In this document: positions 2,728-37,452 of the stretch, piece by piece | Layout of the letters: each line of letters starts with the position of its first letter | How positions within the stretch are numbered: the first letter of the stretch is position 1 | Assembly (NCBI GenBank): GCA_948144175.1 | Contig: CANXME010000202.1 | Location: forward strand, 1,203,253-1,267,252 | Length of the DNA: 64,000 bases | Origin: Closterium sp. NIES-65 | Taxonomy: Eukaryota; Streptophyta; Zygnematophyceae; Desmidiales; Closteriaceae | Direction: 5' to 3' | Program-made: the position numbers and the translations under genes | Notes under the pieces: generated by a model | Told to the model about the DNA's origin: nothing | Database searches by the model: none | The model's input: only the letters and a program-made list of their open reading frames with translations

Positions 2728-3004
2728 CGTCCCAGTGTTACAAATTTCTCCAAAATGATGACCCTTCTGACGGATTTCAAGGAACCTAGGAATTTCATGG
2801 TGTGCGCGAAGGTCGTTGATGCTCGGCCGCACGACATCGGCAAGGACATGGCGATGGAATTATTATGGAACTGGTGATGTGGGCGGAGACGAAGCCTCCT
2901 ACACCGTGGCCTGTAGAGAAGTGTTACAGGACAATTGGACAGTTCGTGCTTGGAGCGACATACGACATTTGCTCCATCAAATGCCGGCCATCCAAGAAAC
3001 CCGA
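2728..3004 (+). CDS. Host gene exon a (frame-shifted)
   Basis: The exon follows a T-rich acceptor ending AACAG and ends at the donor GTGAGT (3005). Its last part reads in the frame containing PVEKCYRTIGQFVLGATYD and leaves two bases that combine with the first base of the next exon. Its middle part reads sensibly only in another frame (FMVCAKVVDARPHDIG). Two offset indels around 2780 and 2850 would explain this. It is the most 5' block I can support. Confidence 0.5.
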
Positions 3005-3325
3005 GTGAGTGTATTTGGTTCATCGTGTTTTGTTAGTAAATGTAACTGTTCAAATTTATCGTGTGCACAATTTTTTATTTTTCTTTGCTATTCTCATTAA
3101 ACTATCTTTCCACAATGCATTTGAGTACTATTGTTATGATCTACCTACCATGTTCATGTAGTGCAACATGTTCATGTTCATGTTCATCTAGAGCATCATG
3201 TTCATGTAGAGCATCATGGTCATGTTCATGTAGACAAAATCTACACAATTCAAGCAATATCGCTGACAAGTATCATTGTATTCACGACGCATACACACTT
3301 TTTATGTTCCATACACATTCTTCAG

Positions 3326-3479
3326 ATATACCGTTGGAGAGTTGGGTGGTGAACTTTTGTGGGTGCACGGTAAATCGCATGCTCGCATGTCGCTCGAAGA
3401 AGACAACATTCCTTTGAGTCTCTTCACTCCCACGCCCCTGTCTGCACTGTTCTCATCCGATCCAATCGCACGTCGTCAG
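3326..3479 (+). CDS. Host gene exon b
   Basis: Acceptor TTCAG at 3321-3325 and donor GTTTGT at 3480. It encodes about 51 residues including YTVGELGGELLWVHGKSHAR and ends in phase 0 on CAG, matching the next exon at 10075 across the intron that E1 invaded. Confidence 0.65.
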
Positions 3480-3788
3480 GTTTGTGTTCATATCAAATCG
3501 TACAATCTAATGCAACATCATTATGTAATAGCATAATTTATTATGTCATTTTTCACACACTATGTAAGCCACATTATCTACTATAATGATGCGAAAATAT
3601 ATAGCATAGTTCTGTAACACACTTTCTTACGTTTCCCATTGATTGAGCCATTCTATAACTTTTTTATCCTCATTATAACACACATACTTATGCCAATGAG
3701 CTTAAATATAAGTTATGTTCATTAACCCATTTTTTCAATTTCCACCTTTTATACAAGATTGACACTCGTTTTACCTTGCACTTGTTTC
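3480..3788 (+). other. Host intron, left half (E1 target)
   Basis: AT-rich sequence with no coding signal. It ends with GTTTC (3784-3788), the left copy of the E1 target duplication. Confidence 0.7.
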
Positions 3789-3914
3789 TGTCAAACATTA
3801 TATATGTTGTTGTAGTTGTTTAGGCTACAGTGGGTTAGCCTATAGGGGGTACACATTTCTAGGTTTTCATACTTAAACTCATTTCACTGCTAGTTCATTC
3901 ATCCTTGTTCAACA
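3789..3914 (+). repeat. E1 5' LTR (126 bp)
   Basis: Starts TGTCAAAC and ends TTCAACA. A TATA-like ATTATATATG lies near its start, the likely core promoter. Confidence 0.93.
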
Positions 3915-3959
3915 TGGTATAGAGCAGGTCCTTCCTAGGACCGATTTTTTTTAGGGCCC
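3915..3959 (+). promoter_or_regulatory. E1 primer site, hairpin and GGGCCC palindrome
   Basis: TGGTATAGAGC resembles the complement of the plant initiator Met tRNA 3' end (TGGTATCAGAGC). It is followed by GGTCC (3927-3931) pairing with GGACC (3938-3942), a T-run, and GGGCCC at 3954-3959. The same order occurs in the sister elements. Confidence 0.75.
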
Positions 3960-4019
3960 ACCACCTACCTACCTACCTACGCCCTAGGGCGCCTCGGCTT
4001 TCACGCCCCTAGAGGCCCC

Positions 4020-4720
4020 ATCGGCCCCGCGCTCTAGCCCCTAGAGGCCCGTGTCGCCCCCGCGCTCGTCCTTAACGGCCTCGAAACGGCCTCGGCTTAA
4101 CCCTAGAGGCCCGCGTTGGCCCCGCGCTCGTCCCTTCCGGCTCCGATCAGCCCCGCGCTCGTCCCTCACGGCCCCGATAGGCCCCGCGCTAGCCCTTAGA
4201 GGCCCACGTCGGCCCCGCGCTCGTCCCTTATGGCCCTGATCGGCCCCGCGCTCGTCCCTTACGGCTCCGTTGGCCCCGCGCTCGTCCCTTACGGCCCCGT
4301 CGGCCCCGCGCTCGTCCCTTACGGCCCCGATCGGCCTCGATCGGCCCCACGCTCGTCCCTCACGGCCCCAATAGGCCCCGCGCTTGCCCTTAGCGCCCAC
4401 GTCGGCCCCGCGCTCGTCCCTCATGGCCCCACCCGCTCCCCGCGCTCGCCCTTAGCGGCCCCGAACGGCCCCACCCAGAACGAGTCGCCCGAACCGAGCA
4501 GCCCGGACCGAGCCGACCCGAGCCGCCCAGCCCTAACGGAACCGAGCCGCCCGACCCGAGCCGCCAGCCCTAACCGACCCGAGCCGCCCGAACCGAGCCG
4601 CCCGAACTGAGCCGCGCCGCCCGACCCGAGCCGCCCGAACCGAGCCGCGCCGCCCTACCTATACCGAGCCGCGCCGCCCTACCTGTACCGAGCCGCGCCG
4701 CCCTACCTACCCTACTGCTC
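4020..4720 (+). repeat. E1 leader minisatellites
   Basis: 4020-4440 repeats a unit around GGCCCCGCGCTCGTCCCTTA with varying spacers. 4480-4720 repeats GAGCCGCCCGACC-like units. ORFs here are products of the repeat. The region lies between the primer site and the gag start at 4747. Confidence 0.85.
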
Positions 4721-4746
4721 CTACTGCTTTTCCTACTGCTACTACC

Positions 4747-7700
4747 ATGGCTAGCCCTCCTGTGCTAGCCTTCAATGCTGAGGGCCGCCCAGTGAAGTTC
4801 GACACCTGGCTTGATGACCTACACCTGTTCCTACAGCTCACTGCCAAGGAAGACATCTCGCTGTACGATCACGCCTTAGGCCACGCTACTGCTCCTGCTG
4901 CTACTGCTGACAGCACTGCCCGCTCACAGTGGCAGACTCGTGACGCCCAAGCTCACTTTGGGCAGCACAAGACTGCACAGGCACAGTACACTGCTGTTGT
5001 TGCCCGCTACTCCTCACCGGCCTCTGCCGCTCTAGGCCGTCTCTCTCTTCCCTACCTCTTCCCCGACTTAGCTTCCTTCCACACTGTCGCTGATCTCATT
5101 ACCCACCTCCGCACTGGTGAGGCTCGCTTCCGCGCCGCTATGCCTGATGAGTTCCTTGCCAAGAACCCACCTCCCCTCGTTCTCTACGAACTTGGTGGCA
5201 GGTTGTGCACTCCAGGACGCGGGTGTTCACCAGTTCACCCCTGCCTACGAGCGTGTCACACACTGCACGTGTGCCCGTACAGGCCGCCACTTGGCTACCT
5301 TCACCCCGCAGCCGGGGTCGGACCTGTACACACTGACTACTGCCCCCCCTCAGGTCGCTGCGTCTGCATCTGCGTCTGCGTCAGGTCAGCTGTCCGCCCC
5401 CTGCTCGTGTCGCTCTCTAGCACACGAGACAGTCCTCTGGCACCACCGACTAGGCCACCCGTCTGTGCAGCGCCTTCGTGCCATGCACTCCCGGTACCTT
5501 GTCTCCGGTCTTCCCAGGGTCCTCCCTCCCCTCCCACCCTCGCCTGCTCCTCCCTGTCTTCCCTGTGTTGAGGGGCGGCAGAGCGCCGCTCCTCACTCCT
5601 CCTCGTTTCCCCCGACGACTGCTCCTTTGCAGACGCTCCACATGGACGTGTGGGGCCCAGCCCGCGTCCGTGGTCAGGGTCAGGAGAGGTACTTCCTGAT
5701 CATTGTTGACGACTACTCGCGCTACACCACGGTCTTCCCCTTGCGCACCAAGGGTGAGATCCCTGATGTTTTGATCCCTTAGATCCGCAGAGCTCGTCTC
5801 CAGCTCAGCGAGCGTTTCCGCTCGGAGTTTCCTGTCCTGCGCTTGCACTCTGATGGAGGTGGTGAGTTCTCCTCCGACCTCTTGGCAGCCTACTATGCTG
5901 AGCACGGCATAGAGCAGTCGTTCACGCTTCCGGCCTCTCCACAGCAGAATGGGGTTGCGGAGCGCCGCATTGGCCTGGTCATGGAGGTCGCTCGTACCTC
6001 CTTGATCCATGCGGCTGCCCCCCACTTTCTGTGGCCGTTTGCGGTCCGGTACGCTGCGCATCAGCTCAACCTCTGGCCCCGTGTCTCCTTGCCGGAGACC
6101 TCGCCCACACTGCTGTGGACGGGGGAGGTTGGCGATGCGTCGCGTTTCCGGGTCTGGGGATCTCGAGCTTTTGTCCGCGATTCATCTGCGGACAAGCTCT
6201 CCTCTCGTGCTGTTCCCTGCGTCTTCCTTGGCTTTGTTCCGGACGCGCCTGGTTGGCAGTTTTACCACGCCACCTCGCGCCGGGTCTTGCCCTCTCAGGA
6301 CGTCACTTTTGACGAGTCTGTCCCCTACTATCGCCTCATCCCCTACCGCACTGCCTCGCTCCCACCCCCGCCTCTCTTCCTCGCGCCAGGTCCTGCTGTC
6401 GTAGACCCCCTCCCCCCTCAGGGTGCCGCTCCCTCAGGTGTGTCCCAGGTAGACCCCGTCGAGCCTGTTGAGGTTGCTGTCGACTCTCGTCCTGCTGGGG
6501 GTGCTGAGCCAGGGGGTGCGGACTCTAGGGGTGCTGAGCCTGGGGGTGCGGACTCTGGGGGTGCTGAGCTTGGGGGTGCGGACTCTGAGGGTGCTGAGGC
6601 TGGGGGTACGGAGACTAGGGGTACTGAGCCTGGGGGTGCTGAGCCTGGGGGTGCGGTGCCTGGGGGTGCTGAGCCTGGGGGTGTGGTGCCTGGGGGTGCT
6701 GAGCCTGGGGGTGCTGGGTCTGGGGGTTCTGACTCTGGCGGTGCTGGTCCTGAGGGTACTTCACCTGGCCGAGACCTCTCCTCGGAGCAGTTGCGTGAGT
6801 GGTACTTACAGTACTGCAGCCTCCGGAGAGGTACCTATGGGACCAGGCGCACTACAGGGACTGGTGCTGGTACTTCTCCTCCTAGTCGGGAGCTCCCCTC
6901 TCGTGAGCGGATCCGTGAGTGGTACGAGCGCCGTTGCACACTTCGGAGTGGTGCGCCTCGTCTCACGGACCCGGCTGCTGCTGGTGCTCCGGACCCGGGC
7001 GTTGGAGCTGCGGCAGGTGCTGTGGACCCTGGTGTTGGAGGTGCTACTGGTGCTGAGGACCCGGGCGTTGGAGCTGCGGCTGGAGCTGTGGACCCTGGTG
7101 TTGGAGCTGCTGCTGGTACTGTGGACCTGGGAGTTGGAGGTGCTACTGGTGCTGAGGACCCGGGTGTTGGAGCTGCGGCTGGTGCTGTGGACCCTGGTGT
7201 TGGAGTCCCTACTGGTGCTGCGGACTCGGGCGTTGGTGCTGAGGTGGGTACTGAGGACCTTGGCGTTGGAGCTGCTGCTGGTTCTGGTACTGCCGTTGGG
7301 GGTACTGGTCCTGTCCAAGCTGTGTCTGGAGTCGCCGTGCGCCCTCAGCCGTACTTCGTTCCGCTCCTTCAGCAGGTTCTTGGTCTCTCGCCTCCTCCTG
7401 GTCCTCCTCCCTTAGCGTGTTCACGGCCTGTCCAGTCACAGAAATAGTTGCAGCCGGCCTCCCCACTGCCTGCTCCTTCTCCTTACACTAGTCCTACTGG
7501 TGGTCTTACTGAGCGTCGTGAGTCTGCATCTCGTCCTGTGTCGCCTGACAGTCCTGCTAGTGCTAGTGCTCGTACTTCGCGTCAGCGTCCTCCTCCTGTC
7601 CATGGCACGCACCGGATGTCTCTGCGTCCGTCTACTGCTCCTCTACGTGCCCCTTTGCCTTCACCTCCTGAGTCCTCTCTTCCTGTTCTTGCCGACCCGG

Positions 7701-9582
7701 AGTCGGACTCTCTCCGTGCTGCCAGTACTACTGTCACGCGTCTCCTTGATACTGTCGTCACTGACCCTTCTTTCGAGTCTACTGCTGCGTCTGCCCTTGT
7801 TACTGAGCTCGTCGACTTTGCTGCTCGCTGTCGTCTAGACTACGCTGCTAGTCTTGTCGCTGAGTCTCAGTCTGTCTGTCCTCCGTCCGTCGGGGGTGAG
7901 TGTGCCCTTGGCACGGACGTCCTTGAGGACAGGCCAGTGTCTGGCTGCTGCTTCACCTCATCTGGTGTCCGTACTGCTTACCCCTGAGGGAGACCCGGAT
8001 GCACTTGACATCCCGACTCCGCGCTCTTACGCGGAGGCGATAGAGGGTCCCTACTCCTCTCAGTGGCAGGCAGCATGCAGAGATGGCTTCCTGGAAGTCC
8101 ACAGGCACCTACGTTGACGCTGTTCCCCCTCCTGGGGCGAACATCCTCAGTGGCATGTGGCTCTTCAGGGTGAAGCGGCCGCCGGGTTCTCCGCCTGTCT
8201 TCAAGGCGCGTTACGTGGCTCGTGGCTTCAGTCAGCGGCAGGGAGTTGACTACTTTCAGACCTTCTCCCCCACCCCGAACATGACCACTCTTTGGGAACT
8301 GCTGCACGTTGCTGCTCACCGTGACTACGAGCTGCACTCGCTCGACTTCAGCACAGCTTTCTTGCAGGCAGCCTGCACGAGGAGATCTGGCTGCGCCGCC
8401 CACCTGGCTTCACTGGGTCTTTCCCTCCTGGTACCTAGTGGAGTCTCCGGCGTCCAGACTACGGTCTCCGCCAGGCGCCACGTGAGTGGCACGACACACT
8501 GAGGACTACACTTGCGGCTCTTGGGTTCGCTCCTTCTACTGCCGACCCGTCGCTGTTTCTGCGCACTGACACCTCTCTGCCGCCGTTCTACATCCTCGTG
8601 TACGTCGACGACTTGGTCTTTGCCACAGCTGACACTACTAGACTCGCCTACGTGAAGTCCGAGCTGCAGAAGAGACACACGTGCACTGACCTGGGTGAAC
8701 TGCGCAGCTACCTTGGTTTGCAGATCACCCGGGACAGAGCACGCCGCACCATTACCCTGACTCAGTCACACATGGTGTAGCAGGTCCTTTAGCGCTTCGG
8801 CTTCACGTACTCCTCGCCTCAAGCCACTCCTTTGTCCACTCGCCACTCGCTCTCAGCTCTGCCTTCGGATGAGTCCGTAGAGTCGAGTGGCCCGTACCCA
8901 GAGCTTGTTGGCTGTCTCATGTACTTGATGACCTGCACACGACCTGACCTTGCTTACCCTCTTAGCATTCTTGCACGCTATGTTGCTCCTGGGAGACACC
9001 GACCAGAGCACATGGCTGCAGCAAAGAGGGTATTGCGCTACTTGTGCAGTACGTGGGCATGGGACTAGTGCTTGGAGGGCGGAGTCCAGTGGTCCTCACT
9101 GGACAGGCAGACGCTTCTTGGGCTGACGACCAGGCTACGCAGCGGTCATCAGAGGGTTACACCTTCAGCCTTGGTTCCGGCTCTGTTTCGTGGCGGGCTA
9201 CTCGCTCGTCTTCTGTTCTCGGCTCCACTTGTGAGGCTGAGATCTACGCAGGGGCCATGGCTGCTCAGGAGCTTTGCTGGCTCACCTACCTGCTGACCGA
9301 CCTTGGAGAGCCGCCTCGTTCTCCTCCAGTCCTGTATGTCGACAACAAGGCCATGCTGGCCTTGTGTCGAGAGCAGAGACTGGAGCACAGAACAAAGCAC
9401 ATTTCTCTCCGCTACTTCCTTGCTCGTGAGCTACAGTAGCGTGGCCAGTTGCGACTTGCGTACGTGGCCTCTAAGGCCAACACTGCTGATGTCTTCACCA
9501 AGGCACTTCCGCCTTGTGATCATCAGCGCTGCTGTATCCAGCTGGGTCTTGTGTCTGTCTTGCCTCACTTGCTCTCCTCTTG
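4747..9582 (+). pseudogene. E1 gag-pol remnant
   Basis: Gag starts at ATG 4747 (MASPPVLAFNAEG) and runs to KNPPP near 5170. There the sequence jumps to the end of the protease region (FSTNLVAG). The following blocks are the HHCC and integrase core with HSDGGGEF and NGVAERRI near 5840-5970, a GGAEPGG-type repeat (6490-6770), a second Gly/Val/Ala repeat (6980-7290), reverse transcriptase (8080-8780; YVDD near 8600) and RNase H to about 9580. Frames change at least four times. TAG codons lie at 5780, 7445, 8778, 8790 and 9437; four of the five correspond to CAG in sister copies. No functional polyprotein can be made. Confidence 0.9.
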
Positions 9583-9794
9583 ACCCTCTTTGTACTGTTA
9601 CATATATATGTATATATTACTGCTCTTGCTTGTTTAGTCTTATATATATATGTTCTCCTGCATGTGAACTGGCCTTGTGGCCTTGAACTTGTGCTCGGAC
9701 TGTGTGGTGACATTGTGATCCACCCTGAGCTTGCTTTGCTTTACTTGACTGGTCTTGTGACCCCTTGTTCTCCCCCACTTCGCCTATGGGGGTG

Positions 9795-9921
9795 TGTCAA
9801 ACATTATATATGCTGTTGTAGTTGTTTAGGCTACAGTGGGTTAGCCTATAGGGGGTACACATTTCTAGGTTTTCATACTTGTACTCATTTCACTGCTAGT
9901 TCATTCATCCTTGTTCAACAG
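9795..9921 (+). repeat. E1 3' LTR (127 bp)
   Basis: Matches 3789-3914 apart from three substitutions and one inserted T. It is followed by the right target copy GTTTC (9922-9926). Confidence 0.93.
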
Positions 9922-9926
9922 TTTCT

Positions 9927-10074: not shown

Positions 10075-10322
10075 GTGGCCTCTTTCATTGTCAAACTAAA
10101 GATTCGAAAAGTGGAGTCGGGTTTCATGTCGCGAGCCGTGTGTCAGGTTAGCGATGCGAGCGGATCGTACGGCCTAATAGCATTAGGTTCATCTGCGGAC
10201 TACATCATACGGCTGGTGGAGGAGGAGAAATCGCTGACCATGACTTCCCAGATGGAAACATCAGTCGTCATGTGGATCACTGAGCTCTTCCAGAACGACA
10301 AACAGATTATGACGACCAAAAG
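10075..10322 (+). CDS. Host gene exon c, OB-fold-like patch
   Basis: Acceptor CTACAG before 10075; the donor GTGCAT at 10323 is weak. It encodes 82 residues plus two bases, including SRAVCQVSDASGSYGLIALG, which resembles the strand and glycine pattern of nucleic-acid-binding OB domains. That resemblance is weak and by eye only. The phase joins perfectly to 10449. Confidence 0.7.
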
Positions 10323-10448: not shown

Positions 10449-10556
10449 GTCGAGGATCATCAAGATCACTGACAGCGCTGTCATTGCTCGTATTGCCCCA
10501 ACCGTCGACCCACTGCCCCTGCCTGCATCTCCTGTTGACTTCGGCATTGTCACATC
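10449..10556 (+). CDS. Host gene exon d
   Basis: Acceptor GTTAG and donor GTAAGT. It encodes SRIIKITDSAVIARIAPTVD and a Pro-rich end. Both ends are in phase with exons c and e. Confidence 0.7.
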
Positions 10557-10838
10557 GTAAGTTCATCCCACAGTTTCTTATATTTTCATACTCTTATGCA
10601 TTCCTGGGCTATTATGATGTTGTTACTCTTTGCTGTCTATTTTATCGTTCATACCAAATATGTCTAATTCTGTATCTGTCGTATGCATTGTTTACTTTGA
10701 CTATTTTTCTTTGTTCCTCGTTGTCTCTTTGCTAAAAAAAAGTTATGTATATCTTAAGTTAATTTGTACTTCTACTGTTATTTAATTATGTTGCTTGCAT
10801 AATTGCATATGTCATTCTTGTATACAATATTCAAACAG

Positions 10839-11039
10839 TGTGGGAGCAGTGACTAACAATGCTCTCGCATTGGGACGAGACGTCGTATGCACACTTAGCG
10901 TGGATATCCGCGACACTCGGACCACTACAGAGTGGACTTGTACATTCAGCCCACCAGAGGATTGCACGAAAGTGTGCCGTTTGCCTGCGGGTTGGGATTG
11001 CTCGAGTGATGCGTGGCTTTGCGATGACGGGCATATCAT
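10839..11039 (+). CDS. Host gene exon e, 5' part, cut by E2
   Basis: Acceptor CAAACAG before 10839. The frame continues from exon d and encodes a Cys-rich stretch with TCTFSPPEDCTKVC followed by WDC and WLCD, possibly a metal-binding site. E2 inserted at 11039/11040 with target duplication ATCAT. A diverged copy of this exon start and its upstream intron occurs at 35019-35137 and 36987-37075. Confidence 0.65.
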
Positions 11040-11172
11040 TGTCAGATGATTATATTGCTGATGCATATATTTAGGCTGTAGTGGGGTAGCCCATAGGGGG
11101 TACAACCCAATTAGGGTTGGTACTTGTACTCGTTTCATTTCATAGTGCACTCATTCCTCTCTCAACTCCACA
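11040..11172 (+). repeat. E2 5' LTR (133 bp)
   Basis: TGTCAGATGATT to CTCCACA. Contains a TATA-like CATATATTTAGG and the inverted repeat AACCC-AATTA-GGGTT seen in sister LTRs. Confidence 0.95.
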
Positions 11173-11214
11173 TGGTATAGAGCGGGTTCCCTGTGGGAAC
11201 TTCGCCTAGGGCCC
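11173..11214 (+). promoter_or_regulatory. E2 primer site, hairpin and GGGCCC palindrome
   Basis: TGGTATAGAGC, then GTTCCC (11186-11191) pairing with GGGAAC (11195-11200), then GGGCCC (11209-11214). Further down, GCGCGCCCC/GAGGCGCGC and GCGACC/GGGTCGC can also pair. Confidence 0.75.
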
Positions 11215-11509
11215 ACCGAAGCGCGCCCCGAGGCGCGCCAACTTTTTTTTCTCTTGCTCGAGCGACCCTCCGGGTCGCCCTTCCCTCGCGGCCCTGCCGC
11301 CCTCTCTGACGCGGCCCCGCCGCCATTTCAGCCGCGGCTCCGCAGCCCATCTTGAACGCGGCCCCGCCGCCTACTAAGACGCGGACCCGCCGCCCGCTCG
11401 GACGCGGCCCCGCCGCCTGCTTAGCCGCGGCCCCGCCGCCTGCTACAACGCGGCCCCGCTGCCTACTCACCCGCGGCACCGCCGCTCGCTACGACGCGGC
11501 CCCGCGCCG

Positions 11510-11879
11510 CTGCACCTGCCGGCCCACCGCTGCACCTGACGGCCCGCCGCTGCACCTGCCGGCCCGCCACAACACCTGACGGCCCGCCACTGCACCTGCC
11601 GGCCCGCCGCTGCACCAGACGGCCCGCCGCTGCACCTGACGGCCCCGCCGCTGCACCTGCCGGCCCGCCGCTGCACCTGCCGGCCCGCCGCTGCACCTGA
11701 CGGCCCCGCCGCTGCACCTGACGGCCCCGCCGCTGCACCTGACGGCCCCGCCGCTGCACCTGCCGGCCCGCCGCTGCACCTGCCGGCCCACCGCTGCACC
11801 TGACGGCCCGCCGCTGCACCTGCCGGCCCGCCACTGCACCTGACGGCCCGCCACTGCACCTGCCGGCCCGCCGCTGCAC
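11510..11879 (+). repeat. E2 leader minisatellite, left part
   Basis: About 18 copies of a 20-21-bp unit CCGCTGCACCTGCCGGCCCG, with TGAC/TGCC variants. The array is cut by E3 and resumes at 19440. Confidence 0.9.
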
Positions 11880-12012
11880 TGTGAAGATATGAAACAGGAA
11901 TGAGAATGACTAAGTCTGAAAGAAGTACAAATAGCAAACCCTAAGTGGGTTGTACCCCCTATGGGATACCCCGCTGTAGCCTACACAAACAGGTAAGCTA
12001 TATGTTCTGACA
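11880..12012 (-). repeat. E3 3' LTR
   Basis: 133 bp, identical to 19307-19439. Confidence 0.95.
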
Positions 12013-12216
12013 CACCCCCATAGGCAAAGTGGGGGAGAACAAGGGGTCACAAGACCAGTCAAGCAAAGCAAAGCAAGCTCGGGGTGGATCACAAAGTCAC
12101 CACACAGTCCGAGCACAAGAGCAAGGCCAAAGGCCAGTTCACATGCAAGAGTACAGACATATATATAAAGCAAGACAAGCAAGAGCAGGTATATATATGT
12201 CACAGTACAAGGAAAG

Positions 12217-25909: not shown

Positions 25910-26124
25910 CCTTGCTTGTACTGCTGCATATATATATTCTTGCTCTTGCTTGTTTAGCACTGTTATATATATATGCTGCATGTGAACAGGCCTTGTGGCC
26001 TTGACCTTGTGCTCGGAATTTGTGTGGTATCCTTGAGATCCACCCTGAGCTTGCTTTGCTCTGCTTTGCTTTGCTTGACTGGTCTTGTGACCCCTTGCTC
26101 TCCCCCACTTTGCCTATGGGGGTG

Positions 26125-26257
26125 TGTCAGATGATTATATTGCTGATGCATATATTTAGGCTGTAGTGGGGTAGCCCATAGGGGGTACAACCCAATTAGG
26201 GTTGGTACTTGTACTCGTTTCATTTCATAGTGCACTCATTCCTCTCTCAACTCCACA
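26125..26257 (+). repeat. E2 3' LTR (133 bp)
   Basis: Identical to 11040-11172. Preceded by the purine tract ATGGGGGTG and followed by ATCAT. Confidence 0.95.
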
Positions 26258-26262
26258 ATCAT

Positions 26263-26302
26263 GCCAAACGCAACCGGGTCGTTGTGTTTGACACATCAAC
26301 AC
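26263..26302 (+). CDS. Host gene exon e, 3' part after E2
   Basis: The host sequence resumes after the second ATCAT copy and ends at the donor GTATGT (26303). The frame that joins the next exon reads AKRNRVVVFDTST; the frame arriving from 11039 is one base off. Either a base was lost near the insertion point or the exon structure is more complex. Confidence 0.55.
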
Positions 26303-26778: not shown

Positions 26779-26936
26779 TTGGAAAGTCTGCTCGCACTGG
26801 TGTTCGTGCTTTTGCGAGTCTGAGTGCTCTCAAGAGTGGATTGGACAAATTCAGCATTGCGATATGGACCGCCGCTGCAGCTGATGAGAAGAAAGAGATC
26901 TTCTCGGGCTTGCTCAACAAGCGATGGCATATTCAG
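26779..26936 (+). CDS. Host gene exon f
   Basis: Acceptor CTAAAG and donor GTGACC. It encodes about 52 residues including ASLSALKSGLDKFSIAIWTA and KEIFSGLLNKRWHIQ, and ends in phase 0. E4 inserted 33 bp downstream, inside the following intron. Confidence 0.7.
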
Positions 26937-26973
26937 GTGACCCATAGCATTCCAAAATTCTACTATATCTTGT

Positions 26974-27107
26974 TGAGAAAGTACGAACGAGAAGTGAATG
27001 ACTATGAAAAAAGAAGTGGGTACAAATAGGAAACCCTAATTGGGTTGTACCCCCTATGGGATACCCCACTATAGCCTACAGAAATAAGTAAGCTATATGT
27101 TCTGACA
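26974..27107 (-). repeat. E4 3' LTR
   Basis: 134 bp, identical to 34464-34597. Confidence 0.95.
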
Positions 27108-27319
27108 CACCCCCATAGGCAAAGTGGGGGAGAACAAGGGGTCACAAGACCAGTCAAGCAAAGCAAAGCAAAGCTCAGGGTGGATCACAAAGTCACCACG
27201 CATTCCGAGCACAAGTTCAAAGGCCAGAAGGCCAGTTCACATGCAAGATCATATATAGAGATATACAAGAGTCAAGCAAGCAAGAGCAAGAGTATATATA
27301 GGTGAAGGTACAAGCAAGG

Positions 27320-30300
27320 TCAAGAGCAGAGCAAGTGAGGCAAGACAGGCACAAGACCCAACTGCGTGCAACAACGCTGATGATCACAAGGCGCAAGTGC
27401 CTTGGTGAAGACATCAGCAGTGTTGGCCTCAGAGGCCACGTACGCAAGTCGCAACTGTCCACGCTGCTGTAGCTCACGAGCAAGAAAGTAGCGGAGAGCA
27501 ATGTGCTTCGTTCTGTGCTCCAGTCGCTGCTCTCGACACAAGGCCAGCATGGCCTTGTTGTCTACGTACAGGACTGGAGGAGAACGAGGCGGCTCTCCAA
27601 GGTCGGTCAGCAGGTAGGTGAGCCAGCGTAACTCCTGTGCAGCCATAGCCCCAGCGTAGATCTCAGCCTCACAACTGGAGCCGAGAACAGAAGACGAGCG
27701 GGTAGCCCGCCACGAGACAGAGCCGGAACCAAGGCTGAAGGAGTAACCCTGTGACGACCGCTGCGTAGCCTGGTCGTCAGCCCAAGAAGCGTCTGCGTGC
27801 CCAGTGAGGACCACTGGACTGCGCCCTCCAAGCACTAGCCCCATGCCCGACGTACTGCACAAGTAGCGCAACACCCTCTTTGCTGCAGCCATGTGCTCTG
27901 GTCGGTGTCTCCCAGGAGCAACAAAGCGTGCGAGAATGCTAAGAGGGTATGCGAGGTCAGGTCGTGTGCAGGTCATCAGGTACATGAGGCAGCCAACAAG
28001 CTCTGCAAACGGGCCACTCGACTCTACGGACTCATCCGAAGGCAGAGCTGAGAGTGAGTGGCGAGTAGGCAGAGGAGTGGCCTGAGGCGAGGAGTACGTG
28101 AAGCCGAAGCGCTGAAGGACCTGCTGCACCATGTGTGACTGAGTCAGGGTAATGGTGCGGCGTGCTCTATCCCGGGTGATCTGCAAGCCAAGGTAGCTGC
28201 GCAGTTCACCCAGGTCAGTGCACGTGTGTCTCTTCTGCAGCTCAGACTTCACGTAGGCGAGTCCAGCAGTGTCAGCTGTGGCAAAGACCAAGTCGTCGAC
28301 GTACACGAGGATGTAGAACGGCGGCAGAGAGGTGTCGGTGCGCAGAAACAGCGACGGGTCGGCAGTAGAAGGAGCAAACCCAAGTGCCGCGAGCGTAGTC
28401 CTCAGTGTGTCGTGCCACTCACGTGGCGCCTGGCGGAGACCGTAGACTGGACGCCGGAGACTCCACTGGGTACCAGGAGGGAAAGACCCAGTGAAGCCAG
28501 GTGGGCGGCGCAGCCAGATCTCCTCGTGCAGGCTGCCCTGCAAGAAAGCTGTGCTGAAGTCGAGAGAGTGCAGCTCATAGTCACGGTGAGCAGCAACGTG
28601 CAGCAGTACCCGAAGAGTGGTCATCTTCGGGGTGGGGGAGAAGGTCTGGAAGTAGTCAACCCCCTGCCGCTGACTGAAGCCACGAGCCACGTAGCGCGCC
28701 TTGAAGACAGGCGGAGAACCCGGCGGCCGCTTCACCCTGAAAATCCACATGCCACTGACGATGTTCGCCCCAGGAGGGGGTACAGCGTCAACGTAGGTGC
28801 CTGTGGACTTCCAGGAAGCCATCTCTGCATCCATAGCTGCCTGCCACTGAGAGGAGTAGGGACCCTCTATCGCCTCCGCGTAAGAGCGCGGAGTCGGGAT
28901 GTCTGGTGCATCCGGGTCTCCCTCAGGGGCTAGCAGTACAGACGCGAGACGAGGTGAAGCGGCAGCCAGACACTGGAACTCCTCCTGCCTGTCCTCAAGG
29001 ACGTCCGTGCCAAGGGCACACTCACCCCCGACGGACGGAGGACAGGCGGACTCAGACTCAGTGACAAGACGAGCAGCGTAGTCGAGACGACAGCGCGCAG
29101 CAAAGTCGACAAGCTCAGTGACAAGGGCAGACGCAGCAGACGACTCGAAGGAAGGGTCAGTGACAGCAGTAGCAAGGAGACGCGTGACAGTAGGACTGGC
29201 AGCACGAAGAGAGTCCGACTCCGGGTCGGCAAGAGCAGGAAGAGAGGAAGCAGGAGGAGAAGGCAAAGGGGCACGCAGAGGAGCAGTGGACGGACGCAGC
29301 GACATCCGGTGCGTGCCAGGGACAGGAGGAGGACGCTGACGCGAACCGCGACCACTAGTGCGCGCAGGACGAACAGGCGACGCAGGACGAGACGCAGGCT
29401 CACGACGCTCAGTAAGACCTCCAGTCGGACCAGCGTAGGGAGAAGGAGCAGGCAAAGGGGAGGCAGGCTGTAGCTGTGGCTGTGACTGGACAGGCTGCGG
29501 ACCCTCTACGGGAGGAGGAGAAGGTGTAAGACCAAGAACCTGCTGAAGGAGCGGAACGAAGTAAGGTCGGGGCCGCGCGGCGACGCTAGAAACAGCTGGA
29601 ACAGTGCCAGCAGCCCCGGCCGGAGCACCCACTCCAGCAGCACCTCCAGCAGCACCACCAGAGGCCCCAGAAGCAGCACCAGGAGTACCCGCAGGCGGAC
29701 CGCCAGCGGCAGGCTCAGCGACAACACCCTCAGCAGTACCAGCTCCAGGAGAACTCTCAGACCCAGCAGCTCCAACACCCAAAGGACGAGCACCGTCGGG
29801 ACGCGCGACAGCAGTACCCTCTGCAGCCGAAGAACCACCAGCACCAGCAGCACGCCTCCAGCGCCTGGCAAACCACTCACGCAGCTCCGGTGGGGAGAGT
29901 GGCTCCCGGTGAGACGAAGCACCCCCAGGCTCAGCACCCCCAGGCTCAGTACCCCCAGGCTCAGCACCCCCAGGCTCAGCACCCCCAGGCACAGCACCCC
30001 CAGGCTCAGCACCCCCAGGCTCAGCACCCCCAGGCTCAGCACCCCCAGGCTCAGCACCCCTAGGCTCAGCACCAGCAGCAGCACCAGAGTCCCCAGTGAC
30101 CTCGACAGGCTCGACCGCGTCTACCTGGGACACACCTGAAGGGGCAGGACCCTGAGGGGGGAGGGGGACTACCGGGGGGGGGCCTGGGACCAAGAAGAGC
30201 GGGGGTGGGGGGAGGGACGGAGTGCGGTAGGGGAAGAGGCGGTAGTAGGGTACCGACTCGTCGAACGTGACGTCCTGGGAGGACAGAACACGTCGAGAGG

Positions 30301-33175
30301 TGGGGTGGTAGAACTGCCACCCAGGGGCGTCGGGGGGGAACCCCAGGAAGACGCAGGGAGCAGCGCGAGGGGACAGCTTGTCCGCAGACAAGTCGCGGAC
30401 AAACGCCCGAGATCCCCAGACCCGGAACGCCGACGCATCGCCAACCTTCCCCGTCCACATCAAGACTGGGGACATCGCGGGTCGAGAGACCCGGGGGTGA
30501 AGGTTGATCTGATGCGCGGCGTACCTGACCGCAAACGGCCACAGAAAATGGGGGGCAGCCGCATGCATCATGGACGTACGAGCGACGTCCATGACCATGC
30601 CAATGCGGCGCTCAGCAATCCCATTCTGCTGTGGTGAGTCCGGAAGCGTGAAGGTCTGACGAATGCCTCGCGCACGACAGTAGGCACTCAGGAGGCCAGA
30701 GGAGAACTCTCCGCCTCTGTCCGAGTGCAGACGCAAAACAGGAAAGTCAGAGCCAAAGCTCCTCCGAAGCTGGAGACGAGCTGCGCGGATCCAAACGATC
30801 AACACCTCAGTGACCTCACCCTTGCTGCGCAAGGGGAAGACTGTGGTGTAACGCGAGTAGTCGTCAACCACCAGCAGGAAGTAGCGCTCCTGACCCTGTC
30901 CACAGACGCGGGCTGGGCCCCACACGTCCATGTGAAGCGTCTGCAACGGGGCCTCTGTCGGAGGAAACTGGGAGGAGTGAGGGGCAGCACGCTGGCGCCC
31001 CTCGACACAGGGGACACAGGCAGGGCCAGGGCCCGGAGGAAAGGGAGGTAGGGACCGGGGAAGACCAGACACAAGGACTCGCGAGGCCATGCCTCTGAGC
31101 CGAAGCAGAGAGGGGTGGCCAAGGCGGTGGTGCCAGAGGAGGGTCTCGTGAGAGAGACGACGACACGAGCAGGGGGCAGACTCAGGACCGGACCTGGACG
31201 CTGCAGCAAACACCTGACCAGACGAAGGGACCCTACCAGACGTAGTACCTGGAGGAGAAGCAGTGGTCAGTGTGTACAGGCTCGACCCTGGCCGACGTGT
31301 GAACGTAGCCAGGTGGCGACCTGTATCCGCCTCAGTGCAGTGAGTCACCCGCTGACGAGCAGGGGTGAACTGGTGGACACCCGCATCCTGGAGGTCAGCA
31401 CCACTCACCAAGTTCGTCGAGAACGAGGGGAGGTAGAGACCAGTCAGGGTGCCAGAGGGGGCCGCCGGACACGGGAGGACAGTGGAGAAGCGAGACAGGA
31501 CAGGCCCCCCAGAGGGGTCAGCCAGGGACACCGCAACCGGCAGACTCAGTGGCGTGAGAGTGGTGCGGTCCCGAAAGAAGGAGCGAGACGCTCCAGAGTC
31601 AAGGGTGAAGGTGTGAGAGGCCGAAGCCGACACAGTACCTGAGAGGGCAGACTCACCAGCACCTGAGAGCATAGACGCACTGGCACCTAGAGCAGCAGCC
31701 TCACTAGTACCTGACGCGGCAGTACCAATGCCCGGGTCGGGCGGGAAACACCGGTAACAGTCATCCTCATCACTACCAGTCACAGCATACATAGCAGAGA
31801 GAATAGCATCAAAGTCAAGATCATAAATGGCTACACCAGCCCTAGACAGTTCCCCCCAGCGGGGGATCTCAGTGGCCTCCGGAAACTGTTGACGCCAGGC
31901 GTCGGTCAGGCGGCCAAAGCAGCGGCGCGCTGTGTGGGTGCCTCCACACCTCTCCCCCGCACGGTCGCCGGAGCGAAGAACGTAGGGGCAGGGACCAAAC
32001 GCACCACCACGCTGACGCTGCAAGTACCACTCACGGAGCTGCTGAGGGGCGGGGACGGTGCGAGACCGCTGCTGCTGCTGCTGCTGCTGCTGGCGCTGAC
32101 CACCCCCAGAGCTGCTCCGCTGGGACGAGCCACTCCGACCCCCGCCGCCTCCGCCACTCCCGCCTCCACCGCCATTCCCACCTCCACCGCCACCCCCGTC
32201 TCCACCGCCACCGCCCCCACCGGTACCCTCGCCCCCGCCTCCTCCGCTGCCGCCTCCGCCGCCACCTCCGCCTCCACCTCCTCCACCGGTACCCCCACTC
32301 CCGCCACCACCTCCACCGCCACCCCCACTCCCCCCGCCACCCCCACCTCCTCCGCCACTGCCTCCTCTAGATCCACCCGCTCCCTTGCCCCCCTTGCCCT
32401 TGCCAGAGCGGCGTCTGCCGCTGGGGGCAGACGCCGCACCGACCGACTCAAAACCAGCGAGGTCGGCCGTAGCAGCAGAGGCGACAGAGGGCAGCAGGGG
32501 GGAAGGAGAACACCCCTCAAAGATGGGGGTGCGAGGGTCACCCCTAGAGGCCCCTACAGCGACTATACTCTTCTCAGCCGCTAGCAGGGACTCCTCAAGG
32601 AGGTCGACAGTGAGGGTGGTGGGACAGACAGCGAGAAACTGGTCCCTAACGACACGAAGGGACTCAGGAAGACGGGTGACGAGAAAGTAGAGAGTGATAT
32701 ACATGGGAGGAGGGTTTGCGGCGCGGAACTCAGCAGGAAGGGCAGCGCGGTAGCGAGCGTCACTAGTGCGGAGGTGGGTAACGAGGTCAGCGACAGTGGG
32801 AAAGGAAGCGAGGTCAGGGAAGAGAAACGGTAGCATGAGGCGGCTAAGGGTAGCGGAGGAAGGAGAGGAGTAGCGTGCAACTACAGCGTCGTACAAGGCC
32901 TGAGCGGTCTTGCACTGACTAAAGTGGGCACGCTCGGAGGAAGGGAGGTGGCGACGCACAGCAAGACGTGCAGCAGCATCGCGGGTCGCCCACTTGGAGC
33001 GAACGGCAGAGTCAGCATCAGCAGGCGGGGCAGGGACAGCTCCAGAGACAAAGTCAAAGAGAGAGACCTCATCTATCGAATCACACAGTAAGTACAGCTG
33101 CAGGTCTTCAATCCAGACGGCAAAGTCAATGGCCCTCCCCTCAGCGTCAAAAGTAAGAACATTGGGGGTGGCCAT
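27320..33175 (-). CDS. gag-pol: E4 Gag-Pol polyprotein (Ty1/copia), intact
   Basis: 1,951 aa from ATG 33175 (MATPNVLTFDAEGRAIDFAV). Gag (1-260) is followed by a Gly-rich linker of about 90 residues and the zinc-knuckle-like C-x13-C-x3-H-x4-C. Protease DSGA is at 526. Integrase catalytic residues are at D750, D819 and E855, reverse transcriptase YVDD at 1625, and the RNase H block ends at the C-terminus. A run of GGAEP pentads separates integrase from reverse transcriptase and is shorter than in E6. No stop or frameshift is seen. E4 and E3 are clearly homologous but differ in linkers, repeats and leader, so they are separate subfamilies of one lineage. Stop is TGA. Confidence 0.95.
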   Translation of the reverse strand: MATPNVLTFDAEGRAIDFAVWIEDLQLYLLCDSIDEVSLFDFVSGAVPAPPADADSAVRSKWATRDAAARLAVRRHLPSSERAHFSQCKTAQALYDAVVARYSSPSSATLSRLMLPFLFPDLASFPTVADLVTHLRTSDARYRAALPAEFRAANPPPMYITLYFLVTRLPESLRVVRDQFLAVCPTTLTVDLLEESLLAAEKSIVAVGASRGDPRTPIFEGCSPSPLLPSVASAATADLAGFESVGAASAPSGRRRSGKGKGGKGAGGSRGGSGGGGGGGGGSGGGGGGGGGSGGTGGGGGGGGGGGGGSGGGGGEGTGGGGGGGDGGGGGGGNGGGGGSGGGGGGRSGSSQRSSSGGGQRQQQQQQQQRSRTVPAPQQLREWYLQRQRGGAFGPCPYVLRSGDRAGERCGGTHTARRCFGRLTDAWRQQFPEATEIPRWGELSRAGVAIYDLDFDAILSAMYAVTGSDEDDCYRCFPPDPGIGTAASGTSEAAALGASASMLSGAGESALSGTVSASASHTFTLDSGASRSFFRDRTTLTPLSLPVAVSLADPSGGPVLSRFSTVLPCPAAPSGTLTGLYLPSFSTNLVSGADLQDAGVHQFTPARQRVTHCTEADTGRHLATFTRRPGSSLYTLTTASPPGTTSGRVPSSGQVFAAASRSGPESAPCSCRRLSHETLLWHHRLGHPSLLRLRGMASRVLVSGLPRSLPPFPPGPGPACVPCVEGRQRAAPHSSQFPPTEAPLQTLHMDVWGPARVCGQGQERYFLLVVDDYSRYTTVFPLRSKGEVTEVLIVWIRAARLQLRRSFGSDFPVLRLHSDRGGEFSSGLLSAYCRARGIRQTFTLPDSPQQNGIAERRIGMVMDVARTSMMHAAAPHFLWPFAVRYAAHQINLHPRVSRPAMSPVLMWTGKVGDASAFRVWGSRAFVRDLSADKLSPRAAPCVFLGFPPDAPGWQFYHPTSRRVLSSQDVTFDESVPYYRLFPYRTPSLPPPPLFLVPGPPPVVPLPPQGPAPSGVSQVDAVEPVEVTGDSGAAAGAEPRGAEPGGAEPGGAEPGGAEPGGAVPGGAEPGGAEPGGTEPGGAEPGGASSHREPLSPPELREWFARRWRRAAGAGGSSAAEGTAVARPDGARPLGVGAAGSESSPGAGTAEGVVAEPAAGGPPAGTPGAASGASGGAAGGAAGVGAPAGAAGTVPAVSSVAARPRPYFVPLLQQVLGLTPSPPPVEGPQPVQSQPQLQPASPLPAPSPYAGPTGGLTERREPASRPASPVRPARTSGRGSRQRPPPVPGTHRMSLRPSTAPLRAPLPSPPASSLPALADPESDSLRAASPTVTRLLATAVTDPSFESSAASALVTELVDFAARCRLDYAARLVTESESACPPSVGGECALGTDVLEDRQEEFQCLAAASPRLASVLLAPEGDPDAPDIPTPRSYAEAIEGPYSSQWQAAMDAEMASWKSTGTYVDAVPPPGANIVSGMWIFRVKRPPGSPPVFKARYVARGFSQRQGVDYFQTFSPTPKMTTLRVLLHVAAHRDYELHSLDFSTAFLQGSLHEEIWLRRPPGFTGSFPPGTQWSLRRPVYGLRQAPREWHDTLRTTLAALGFAPSTADPSLFLRTDTSLPPFYILVYVDDLVFATADTAGLAYVKSELQKRHTCTDLGELRSYLGLQITRDRARRTITLTQSHMVQQVLQRFGFTYSSPQATPLPTRHSLSALPSDESVESSGPFAELVGCLMYLMTCTRPDLAYPLSILARFVAPGRHRPEHMAAAKRVLRYLCSTSGMGLVLGGRSPVVLTGHADASWADDQATQRSSQGYSFSLGSGSVSWRATRSSSVLGSSCEAEIYAGAMAAQELRWLTYLLTDLGEPPRSPPVLYVDNKAMLALCREQRLEHRTKHIALRYFLARELQQRGQLRLAYVASEANTADVFTKALAPCDHQRCCTQLGLVPVLPHLLCS
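29920..30085 (-). repeat. E4 GAEPG-coding 15-bp repeats
   Basis: About ten near-identical 15-bp units (GGTGCTGAGCCTGGG in coding sense). Confidence 0.9.
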
Positions 33176-33379
33176 GGCAGCAGCTGAAAGTCTCACCGGG
33201 CTGGAAGAGTCGGGTAGGTCAGCAGCAGAGGAACACAGCTCAGGGACAGCAGCACGGCTCCTCAGGTGGCTCGCGTGGCTCAGGCGGCTCGGGCGGCTCG
33301 GGCGGCTCGGGCGGCTCGCGCGGCTCGGGTGGCGTAGGGGCTGACGGGCGGCGCGGGCTGCTGGGGCTGCTCACGTGCA

Positions 33380-34350
33380 GTACGGCGGGCTGCAGCAGGG
33401 CCGGTGGTGGGCTGTAGCAGGGCCGGTGGCGGGCTGTAGCAGGGCCGGTGGCGGGCTGCAGCAGGGCCGGCGGCGGCTGTAGCAGGGCCGGTGGCGGGCT
33501 GTAGCAGGGCCGGTGGCGGGCTGTAGCAGGGGCCGGTGGCGGCTGTAGCAGGGCCGGTGGCGGGCTGTAGCAGGGCCGGCGGCGGGCTGTAGTAGGGGCC
33601 GGTGGCGGCTGTAGCAGGGCCGGTGGCGGGCTATAGCAGGGGCCGGTGCGGGCTGTAGTGGGGCCGACGAGGGGCCAAAGTGGGGCCTAGGCGGGCCGGC
33701 GGGCTGTAGGCGGGGCCGACGCGGCGGGCTGTAGCAGGGGCCGGTGGCGGGCCTAAGCGGGGCCAGCGCGGGGCCGACAGGGCGTAGGTGGGGCCGACGC
33801 GGGGCCGAAGAGGGGCCTAAGCGGGGCCGACGGAGCCTACGCGGGGCCGACACGGGGCCGAGACGGGGCCTGGGCGGGGCCTACGCGGGGCCGACGAGGT
33901 GTACGCGGGGCCGACGAGGTGTACGCGGGGCCGACGAGGTGTACGCGGGGCCGACGAGGTGTACGCGGGGCCGACGAGGTGTACGCGGGGTCGACGAGGT
34001 GTACGCGGGGTCGACGAGGGGTACGCGGGGCCGACGAGGTGTACGCGGGGCCGACGAGGTGTACGCGGGGCCGACGAGGTGTACGCGGGGTCGACGAGGG
34101 GTACGCGGGGCCGACGAGGGGTACGCGGGGCCTACGCGGGGCCGACGAGGGGTACGCGGGGCCTACGCGGGGCCTACGTGGGGCCGACGAGGGGTACGCG
34201 GGGCCTACGCGGGGCCGACGAGGGGTACGCGGGGCCGACGAGGGGTACGCGGGGCCTACGCGGGGCCGACGAGGGGTACGCGGGGCCGACGAGGGGCCTA
34301 AGCAGGGGCCGACGAGGGGCCTAAGCGGGGGGCCGACGAGGGGCCTAAGC
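33380..34350 (-). repeat. E4 leader minisatellites
   Basis: Two arrays. 33380-33740 repeats GTAGCAGGGCCGGTGGCGGG. 33800-34350 repeats the 20-bp unit GGGGCCGACGAGGTGTACGC, with at least 20 copies. Long ORFs on both strands here are repeat artefacts. Confidence 0.92.
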
Positions 34351-34419
34351 GTGAGCACGACGGGAGGGGCGACTCGGAGGGTCGCTAAAAAAAATGCGCG
34401 CCTCGGGGCGCGCTTCGGT

Positions 34420-34463
34420 GGGCCCTAGGAACAGGCCCTAGGAAGGGACCTGCTCTGATTCCA
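34420..34463 (-). promoter_or_regulatory. E4 primer site, hairpin and GGGCCC palindrome
   Basis: Read leftwards from 34463: TGGAATCAGAGC, then AGGTCCC pairing with GGGCCT (34433-34451, one G-U pair), then GGGCCC at 34420-34425. Confidence 0.75.
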
Positions 34464-34597
34464 TGAGAAAGTACGAACGAGAAGTGAATGACTATGAAAA
34501 AAGAAGTGGGTACAAATAGGAAACCCTAATTGGGTTGTACCCCCTATGGGATACCCCACTATAGCCTACAGAAATAAGTAAGCTATATGTTCTGACA
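34464..34597 (-). repeat. E4 5' LTR
   Basis: 134 bp, identical to the 3' LTR. Flanked by CTTGT. Confidence 0.95.
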
Positions 34598-34699: not shown

Positions 34700-34768
34700 A
34701 TGGTGACAAAGGCAGCTGGAAATCATTTTGAAAGAACCATCACATCGTTCTCGCTGATGTCTTCAAAT
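34700..34768 (+). CDS. Host gene exon g
   Basis: Acceptor CACTGCAG and donor GTGAGT. Exactly 23 codons, phase 0 at both ends, including KAAGNHFERTITSFSLM. Confidence 0.65.
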
Positions 34769-34942: not shown

Positions 34943-35018
34943 GATGAGCATGAGGTATCCATGAACGAACACAACAAGCGCACAGCAACAACTGCTCCTT
35001 CAAGTGTTCCACACAAAA
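34943..35018 (+). CDS. Host gene exon h, 5' part, cut by copied fragment
   Basis: Acceptor CTATTAG. It encodes DEHEVSMNEHNKRTATTAP and beyond. At the A-run around 35015-35020 the sequence switches to a copy of the intron and exon e start found at 10736-10943. Removing 35019-37075 restores an open frame into 37076-37111. Confidence 0.6.
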
Positions 35019-35137
35019 AAGTTATGTATATCTTAAGTTAATTTGTACTTCTATTGTTATTTAATTATGTTGCTTGCATAATTGCATATGTCATTCTTGT
35101 ATACAATATTCAAACAATGTGGGAGCAGTGACTGACA

Positions 35138-35356
35138 TGTCAAAGATAGTAGGAGTGCGGCCTAGGCTTAGTAGCCTAGGCCACAGTAGGACTAGGGCAA
35201 TGAGGCGCCAAGTACGAGCTAGGTTGTGTGAAGGGATGAAATTGAGAAGGAAGTGTGATGAACTAGCAAGCAGCAGGATACAAATAGCAAACCCTAAGGG
35301 GCTGTACTCACTATTGAGTGCCCCACTGCAGGCTACACAAACAACATATTCTGGCA
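35138..35356 (-). repeat. E5 3' LTR (219 bp)
   Basis: TGTCAAAGATAG to ATTCTGGCA (+ strand); the partner LTR ends CTGACA. Confidence 0.88.
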
Positions 35357-36767
35357 CACCCCCATAGCCAAAGTGGGGTGTAATCAGCACAGTAAGCAAA
35401 GCAGAACAAGCTCAGGGTGGATCACAATGTCACCACACATTCTGAGCACAATTACAAGAAGCAACAGTTGAAAGTTCACAGTTATGAGCAAAGCTAGTGG
35501 TAGTCACAGCGGACAAGTGAGGAGGAGGAGGGACTGTGAGAGGAGAGAAGATGGGAGACGACGGCTGAAGCTGCAGACACACGGGCAACAGGAGCGGCTG
35601 GCACAGTGGCTACCGGGACAGCGCCCCGGACTACTGGAGTAACTGGCTCATGGGCTACGACGAGCTACAGGAGCAACGGACTCACGGGCGACAAGCGCAG
35701 CAGGCTCTGTGGGCTACCAAGACAGCACCCTGGACTACAGGTGCTGCGCACGACTAGACGACAGTCTCCTCTCAGCCTCCCCAAGCAGTCCCACACCCCC
35801 CTACACACACCCCCAGTTTCACCCCTAGCTCCACTCCCACATCACCCCCATAGCTCCACTCCCCACAGCTCCCACACCTCCACCCCCCTCAGCGGCAGCT
35901 GCAGCAGTGGGAGATGAAAAAGGAGGAGGGGAGAACCCACATCGGTCACCCCCATGCTTGCCACCCCGCCCCCCAACCACCGCGGAGCACACGGCCGAAA
36001 GAGAGAATGGGCAGCACGGGGGGGGGGGGGGGGGGGGTGCAGGGACGACATCACGAGCAACTGCAGGGGCGGGCCGCGGGCTGCTGCAGGGGTCCAGAGA
36101 CGGCTGCTGCAAGCTGTGGGCGGCTCCAGGAGCTGCTGCTGTAGAGATGGGCAGCTCTAGGGGCGGCCGCTGCAAGTGAAAGGTAGGAAGGAGGTAGGAG
36201 GAGTTAGGAGGAGGGAGGGGCGCCCCGAGGGGCGACGAGCAAAGGGCCGCGCAGCCCCCCCACGGGGCGCCACGACGGGCACCAGAGAGGGTGCTGCGAC
36301 AGGCCTCCAGAGCCGCCTCGACGGGCGACGGGGAGGGCGCCGCGCACGGCCCCTGAAGACGCCTCGACGGGCGACGGGGAGGGCGCCGTGCACGGCCCCC
36401 GTGGTCGCCACGACGAGCGACGGGGAGGGCGCCGCGGACGGCCTTTGTGTCGCCACGACGGGCGACGGGAGGGGAGGCCGCGCGGGTCCCCGAGGTCGCC
36501 TCAACGGGCGACGGGAGGGGAGGCCGCGCGGGTCCCCGAGAGCACCTCAACGGGCGCTTCGACGGGAGGGGACCGCGGAGGCCCCCCCAAGGGCACCACG
36601 ATGGGCGCCACTGAAGGGAAACCCGCCAGGCGCCTCGAGCACGCGGCGGGCAGAAATTAGGGTTTCGCCGCCGCGCATCACGGGGCGCGCGGCGGACGGT
36701 GGGGCAGCGGAAGCAGATGGTGGGCCCATACACAGGAAGGCGGCGGACATGCCGCCCTCTGATACCA
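35357..36767 (-). other. E5 interior, non-coding
   Basis: Contains a G-run of about 18 near 36020-36037 and repeats around CGACGGGCGACGGGGAGGGCGCC at 36300-36530. The ORFs at 35825-36733 (-) and 36176-37264 (+) follow the repeat periodicity or cross the LTR and are not supported as genes. Confidence 0.6.
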
Positions 36768-36986
36768 TGTCAAAGATAGTAGGAGTGCGGCCTAGGCTTA
36801 GTAGCCTAGGCCAGAGTAGGACTAGGGCAATGAGGCGCCAAGTACGAGCTAGGTTGTGTGAAGGGATGAAATTGAGAAGGAAGTGTGATGAACTAGCAAG
36901 CAGCAGGATACAAATAGCGAACCCTAAGGGGCTGTACTCACTATTGAGTGCCCCACTGCAGGCTACACAAACAACATATTCTGACA
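36768..36986 (-). repeat. E5 5' LTR (219 bp)
   Basis: Nearly identical to 35138-35356. Preceded in element sense by host sequence AGACA. Confidence 0.88.
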
Positions 36987-37075
36987 AGACAATGCTCTTG
37001 CATTGGGACGAGACGTCGCATGCACACTTAGCGTGGATATCCGCGACGCTCGGACCACTACAGAGTGGACTTGTA

Positions 37076-37111
37076 GTTTCGATGAAAATCAATCGGCGCC
37101 ATGGTGGTCTT
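37076..37111 (+). CDS. Host gene exon h, 3' part
   Basis: Joined to 35018 this encodes SFDENQSAPWW and ends at a strong donor, GTAAGT, at 37112. The one base left over is completed by the next exon. Confidence 0.55.
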
Positions 37112-37339
37112 GTAAGTTACAAGCTATTCTTTTTTACTGCTATATTTTTTACTTATATGTTACATAGTCATTGTAGTTTGGTTTCTTTGTCGAATAATCT
37201 GTTGTGTTACAAGTGTCTTTCCCAAACAGCATATGGTGTTTGGCTAATTTATCATTATTCTTAAATTGGGTAACCTAATGTGTTAGTGACATTTTCTGAT
37301 CGAATTCTCAAGCAACCCCCCTTTTTTTTTCCTTTGCAG
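37112..37339 (+). other. Host intron
   Basis: GTAAGT to a T-rich tract ending TTTGCAG. AT-rich, no other feature. Confidence 0.65.
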
Positions 37340-37452
37340 CGCACATAAGTTCGACAGCCTCATGCTATGACGAGGATGAATACGAGCAGAAGATGAAAAC
37401 GAAGGGCGAGACAAGCAAAGGAGAGGAAATGGATAGCGGAAGGGGAAGATGA
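37340..37452 (+). CDS. Host gene last exon with stop
   Basis: A T-rich acceptor ends TTTGCAG. It encodes a charged tail (YDEDEYEQKMKTKGETSKGE) and stops at TGA 37450-37452. The hydrophilic acidic/basic end is typical of a disordered C-terminus. Confidence 0.65.

Follow-up and report, generated by a model that had tools for sequence, protein, structure and literature searches.

In maize and wheat, long terminal repeat (LTR) retrotransposons are nested in genes and in intergenic DNA, the younger within the older, bounded by target duplications and datable through the identity of their LTRs. In gymnosperms, LTR elements residing in introns lengthen genes many-fold. Here we describe a nest of this kind in Closterium sp. 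NIES-65, a member of the zygnematophytes, the algae most closely related to land plants. In a window of 64,000 nucleotides (GenBank assembly GCA_948144175.1, contig CANXME010000202.1, positions 1,203,253 to 1,267,252 of the forward strand), the segment 2728-37452 appears to hold a single intron-containing host gene, about 3.7 kb long here, which has been broken up by five LTR elements (E1 to E5) and a copied fragment, and which is most likely now a pseudogene; we consider this reading probable. As in the maize and wheat nests, younger LTR elements lie inside older ones, with target duplications and with dating through LTR identity. Unlike them, the zygnematophyte nest is found inside a single gene-like locus, and the LTRs of E1 to E4 are short (126-134 bp). 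As in gymnosperms, LTR elements in introns stretch the gene, but in Closterium E2 and the copied fragment bearing E5 are exonic, so that the gene has probably been lost.

Short nearby sequence can also be copied into a gene without a transposon. The portion of the report on maize p2/p1 drawn on here describes templated filler DNA of 50 bp at a repaired break (PMC2686159). The Closterium copy is of that sort, although it measures 207 bp instead of 50 bp and its source, by a sum of the host bases, lay about 1.2 kb upstream of it prior to the insertions; we infer its mechanism from the outcome alone. For the genus itself, a survey of six assemblies of the Closterium psl complex describes variation in genome size and copy number and, for four Closterium assemblies, reports repeats of 47-64%, introns that average 485-554 bp and intergenic regions that average 10-16 kb; the terms LTR, Copia and pseudogene are absent from the main text of that survey, and the portion used here makes no mention of this locus (PMC10407611). 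With the insertions removed, the introns at the present locus range from about 130 to 480 bp, a little under the averages of the survey.

The sequence shows the contiguity of the flanks, the nesting and kind of the elements, and the copied fragment. E1, E2, E4 and E5, with E3 nested in E2, account for 30,823 of the 34,725 bp. With each target-site duplication counted once, the host DNA left over comes to 3,882 bp, or 3,675 bp without the 207-bp copied fragment. Exact duplications of 5 bp flank all four of E1 (GTTTC/GTTTC), E2 (ATCAT/ATCAT), E3 (TGCAC/TGCAC) and E4 (CTTGT/CTTGT), and the duplication of E5 carries one mismatch (TGACA/AGACA). The empty site for E5 is preserved within the window, at 10736-10942, which is uninterrupted at the E5 position. 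Since the duplications at E1 to E4 are exact and the empty site of E5 survives, the host blocks between 2728 and 37452 were once one stretch. That a single contiguous host segment, gene or not, was enlarged by serial insertion is therefore well supported, as the initial annotation had proposed, with the correction that the original size was nearer 3.7 kb than the roughly 3 kb then suggested.

The borders of the elements come from comparing the window with itself, aligning the LTRs and reading the sequence. E1 (3789-9920, forward strand) is a degenerate Copia element in intron 2, with LTRs of 126 bp that differ at three positions. E2 (11040-26257, forward) is a Copia element within exon 5, of 15,218 bp counting E3, with identical LTRs of 133 bp. 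E3 (11880-19439, reverse), also Copia with identical 133-bp LTRs, is nested in E2, where it separates the left LTR from the coding region, and has an open frame of 1989 amino acids; its target there is a tandem repeat of roughly 20 bp (11500-11880, 19440-19680). E4 (26974-34597, reverse) is a Copia element in intron 6, with identical LTRs of 134 bp and an open frame of 2016 amino acids. E1 to E4 are Ty1/Copia LTR retrotransposons: their paired LTRs start with TG and end with CA, and in E3 and E4 a single frame carries GAG_pre-integrs, rve, SH3 and then RVT_2, with integrase before reverse transcriptase. The same order is found in pieces in E2 (rve earlier, RVT_2 later), and in E1 the one piece scanned contains RVT_2, the Copia reverse transcriptase. 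A candidate primer-binding site beside the left LTR reads TGGTATAGAGC in E1, E2 and E3 and TGGAATCAGAGC in E4, sequences that resemble TGGTATCAGAGC; neither RNA families nor tRNAs were found in the window at the thresholds used. A search with the gag of E4 returned 2,643 proteins at E <= 0.001, and the best 120 of these 2,643 are all named Closterium; the strains among the matches listed are NIES-53, -54, -64, -65, Naga37s-1 and Yama58-4, and the best match covers 61% of the query at 79% identity. The gag proteins thus point to Closterium or a near relative.

The frame of E2 (19721-25909) contains three in-frame stops, all TAG, where the E3 and E4 frames, compared by eye, read Q, W and Q. The LTRs are identical despite these stops, and the template of E2 was probably defective beforehand, its mobilisation occurring in trans. 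E5 (35138-36986, reverse) is an LTR element of 1,849 bp with no recognised coding domains and with LTRs of 219 bp that differ at three positions. The two long frames that overlap it matched no Pfam family, and its ends are similar to the LTRs of the Copia elements in the window, so it is most simply read as a putative non-autonomous relative of these elements.

The copied fragment derives from 10736-10942 (forward), where intron 4 ends and exon 5 begins, and lies in exon 8 in the same orientation, where E5 divides it into a left part (35015-35137) and a right part (36987-37075) that starts with the second copy of the E5 target duplication. Source and copy are identical at 201 of 207 positions, and the six differences are all transitions. 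The differences between paired LTRs (0/133 in E2, 0/133 in E3, 0/134 in E4, 3/126 in E1 and 3/219 in E5) suggest an order of events. Against the pooled LTRs of E2, E3 and E4 (0/400), the copy (6/207, p 0.0015), E1 (p 0.013) and E5 (p 0.044) appear older, and copy and E5 do not differ significantly (p 0.33). Nesting alone places E3 after E2 and E5 after the copied fragment. The locus would thus have received E1 in intron 2 and, in exon 8, the 207-bp piece, probably as filler in the repair of a double-strand break, with E5 later inserting in the copied piece; E2 in exon 5, E3 in E2 and E4 in intron 6 would then represent recent, ordinary Copia integration with 5-bp target duplications.

The exon model laid over these host blocks has 11 pieces, all on the forward strand, which sum to 1,476 nucleotides and are separated by introns with GT..AG borders, in keeping with the plausible splice sites first described. 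Exon 1 (2728-3004), preceded by AG and followed by GTGAGT, contains one internal frame break and may start at an ATG near 2755 or be preceded by more exons upstream. Exon 2 (3326-3479) has a single open frame, the one carried on from exon 1 beyond its break. It is followed by exon 3 (10075-10322), exon 4 (10449-10556) and the first part of exon 5 (10839-11039), which is Cys-rich, as had been noticed at the outset. Beyond E2 come the remainder of exon 5 (piece 5b, 26263-26302, or to 26306 with an alternative donor), exon 6 (26779-26936), exon 7 (34700-34768), the first part of exon 8 (34943-35014), its remainder beyond the copied fragment (piece 8b, 37076-37111, with a junction made ambiguous by microhomology) and exon 9 (37340-37452), which carries the stop codon of the model as first drawn.

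Several properties make it likely that this chain, judged by its splice sites, phase and open frames, is one gene. The G+C content (GC) is 0.41-0.56 in the 11 exon pieces and 0.29-0.40 in the ten intron stretches, and T exceeds A in all ten of the latter. Phase agrees across seven introns; at the one preceding exon 9, the eighth, it agrees under one of three drawings of the copied-fragment junction. Pieces 5b and 8b have more than one open frame, so that phase agreement there includes a choice. The coding phase, initially described as continuous, does carry across the introns that hold E1 and E4 and can carry across E2, but past the copied fragment it varies with the junction chosen: the three drawings give three different ends, according to how many bases of an A-run are assigned to the target. 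When exon 1 after its break is joined through to exon 5, one frame is open, and any open frame arose in 1 of 20,000 per-exon dinucleotide shuffles (6 of 20,000 for exons 2-5 and 761 of 20,000 for exons 6-8), figures that flatter the model, as the exon borders had been selected for openness and the test is lenient. Of the registers tried, 4 of 81 (exons 1-5) and 2 of 27 (exons 5b-8) are open. By codon-position composition, trained on Copia frames that differ in base composition, the declared frame ranks first in 7 of 10 exon parts (binomial p 0.02).

The spliced protein is without a recognised relative, as the initial annotation had it. A database of 5.8 billion proteins was searched twice, with 7,986 and 7,996 candidates sharing most words being scored; candidate lengths were about 270-859 and 540-1718 amino acids, the second search used residues 60-420 only, and proteins under about 270 amino acids were excluded. 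By our own estimate, such word-based searches reach roughly 55% identity or more, with distant relatives beyond their range. A Blast comparison with 120 Closterium proteins gave two matches at chance level (E 4.8 and 8.7). No homologue covering two or more of the blocks, the check proposed in the initial annotation, was found by these searches, which reach only fairly close relatives and exclude the window's own genome. As to the suggested weak OB-fold look, no Pfam family and no PDB sequence matched at E up to 10, exon 3 folded alone gave a low-confidence model, and structure searches spoke neither for nor against the fold. A nucleic-acid-binding OB-fold role for the host protein would be a guess.

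A number of results weigh against the chain being one gene. Among the candidates scored, the spliced protein has no relative in the protein database, and it matches nothing in Pfam, NCBIfam, PHROG or the PDB sequences (Pfam and PDB at E up to 10). That database includes proteins named from six Closterium strains, perhaps as incomplete proteomes, and absence among them counts against a widespread intact gene; the gene could be unpredicted, annotated at under about 270 amino acids, too diverged or missing. For exons 5b-8, an open frame turns up in 674 of 20,000 shuffles. In a search free of the proposed borders, the best spliced frame scores 2,259; shuffles average 1,889 (standard deviation 171), with 2 of 200 reaching the real score, a moderately significant result, and the best chain departs in places from the model given above. 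Part by part, support from codon composition is weak: the second part of exon 1, exon 3 (the longest tested) and exon 7 fail, and p < 0.05 against a part's own shuffles is obtained in 2 of 10 parts only (exons 6 and 8). With regard to the order of events, the copy is not significantly older than E2 taken alone (p 0.085).

Apart from the last, these points, together with the frame break in exon 1, are what would be expected if the contiguous segment were non-coding, or a very old and degraded gene, and the exon chain a set of open stretches selected by eye. The rarity of an open frame through exons 1-5, the contrast in GC between exons and T-rich introns and the agreement of phases across introns argue the other way, and we regard this alternative as unlikely, though deserving of real weight. 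The most likely account remains an orphan gene broken by recent Copia insertions. That the gene encodes a lineage-restricted, multi-domain and perhaps OB-fold, nucleic-acid-binding Closterium protein without known relative, which some strains still make with the retroelements spliced out, seems very doubtful; were it true, the locus would be a relatively dated, stepwise record of an orphan gene being dismantled.

The coding frame is disrupted in three places. Exon 5 is split by E2. The copied fragment introduces a stop codon into the frame of exon 8, and the splice acceptor of its source has been lost within it, AG reading AA. Exon 1 contains one internal change of frame, which bears out the frame slip that had been noted in the first block. 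A cryptic intron over this break was considered and rejected: 20 GT-AG pairs fit, but all have a GC of 0.53-0.58, unlike the other introns. A second frame slip, proposed at the E2 site, is not required, given that exon 5, if spliced from a donor lying 4 bases downstream, runs into the only open frame of exon 6; the slipped frame first proposed is likewise open from piece 5b into exon 6. The view of a gene caught while decaying therefore keeps E2 in exon 5, the stop-bearing copy in exon 8 and the break in exon 1, and loses the slip at E2. On this sequence, the locus is most likely now a pseudogene.

A gene still in use would need E1 and E4 to be spliced out with their introns and E2 to be removed like an intron, or an intact copy to exist elsewhere, with the copied fragment merely shortening the tail. 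The intronic position of E1 and E4 and the absence of an obligate frame slip at E2 are compatible with this, the copied fragment touches about the last tenth of the protein only, and extensive gene copy-number variation is described in the portion of the C. psl complex survey used here (PMC10407611). An exon 5 interrupted by a 15-kb element and the break in exon 1, which could be skipped only by introns of atypical GC, make continued use highly improbable; a strict literature search requiring all terms matched no paper on exonic elements spliced as introns. That the open frames belong to a further mobile element, or to a gene gained by horizontal transfer, instead of to a resident host gene is barely credible, since the lack of a known relative in the host or among other proteins is set against eight T-rich introns, no bounding repeats when the host blocks were compared with the window in 11-base words, and no match of the protein to viral or bacterial/archaeal contigs, in scans that detect close relatives only and from which records near the window may be missing.

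The remainder of the window is also rich in elements. Just downstream of the gene, a 235-bp tandem repeat (37706-38154, 45575-45892), with diverged pieces at 57976-58029, is split by E6 (38154-45575, reverse; target-site duplication CAAGT), which lies outside the gene. E7 (about 45892-57975, reverse) is a different Copia element with LTRs of more than 400 bp that are about 95% alike, and E8 (about 50512-57936, forward) lies within an LTR of E7, with a target duplication (TTCCG/TTTCG) that has one mismatch. E9 extends from about 59129 to the window end on the reverse strand. Upstream, positions 1-2100 are GC-rich and have long open frames in both orientations, none matching Pfam; this region could be one more element or a neighbouring gene upstream. 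Between it and exon 1 the sequence is T-rich and contains CT repeats.

The process seen here is an ordinary one, which by itself alters no view of gene loss, observed clearly in an understudied lineage. The locus provides a clear single-locus case of gene dismantling in a zygnematophyte, in which short-LTR Copia elements, an apparent non-autonomous relative and a templated copy would have hit one gene at times that can in part be told apart. A further implication may be that gene predictors applied to Closterium could miss or fuse genes of this sort.

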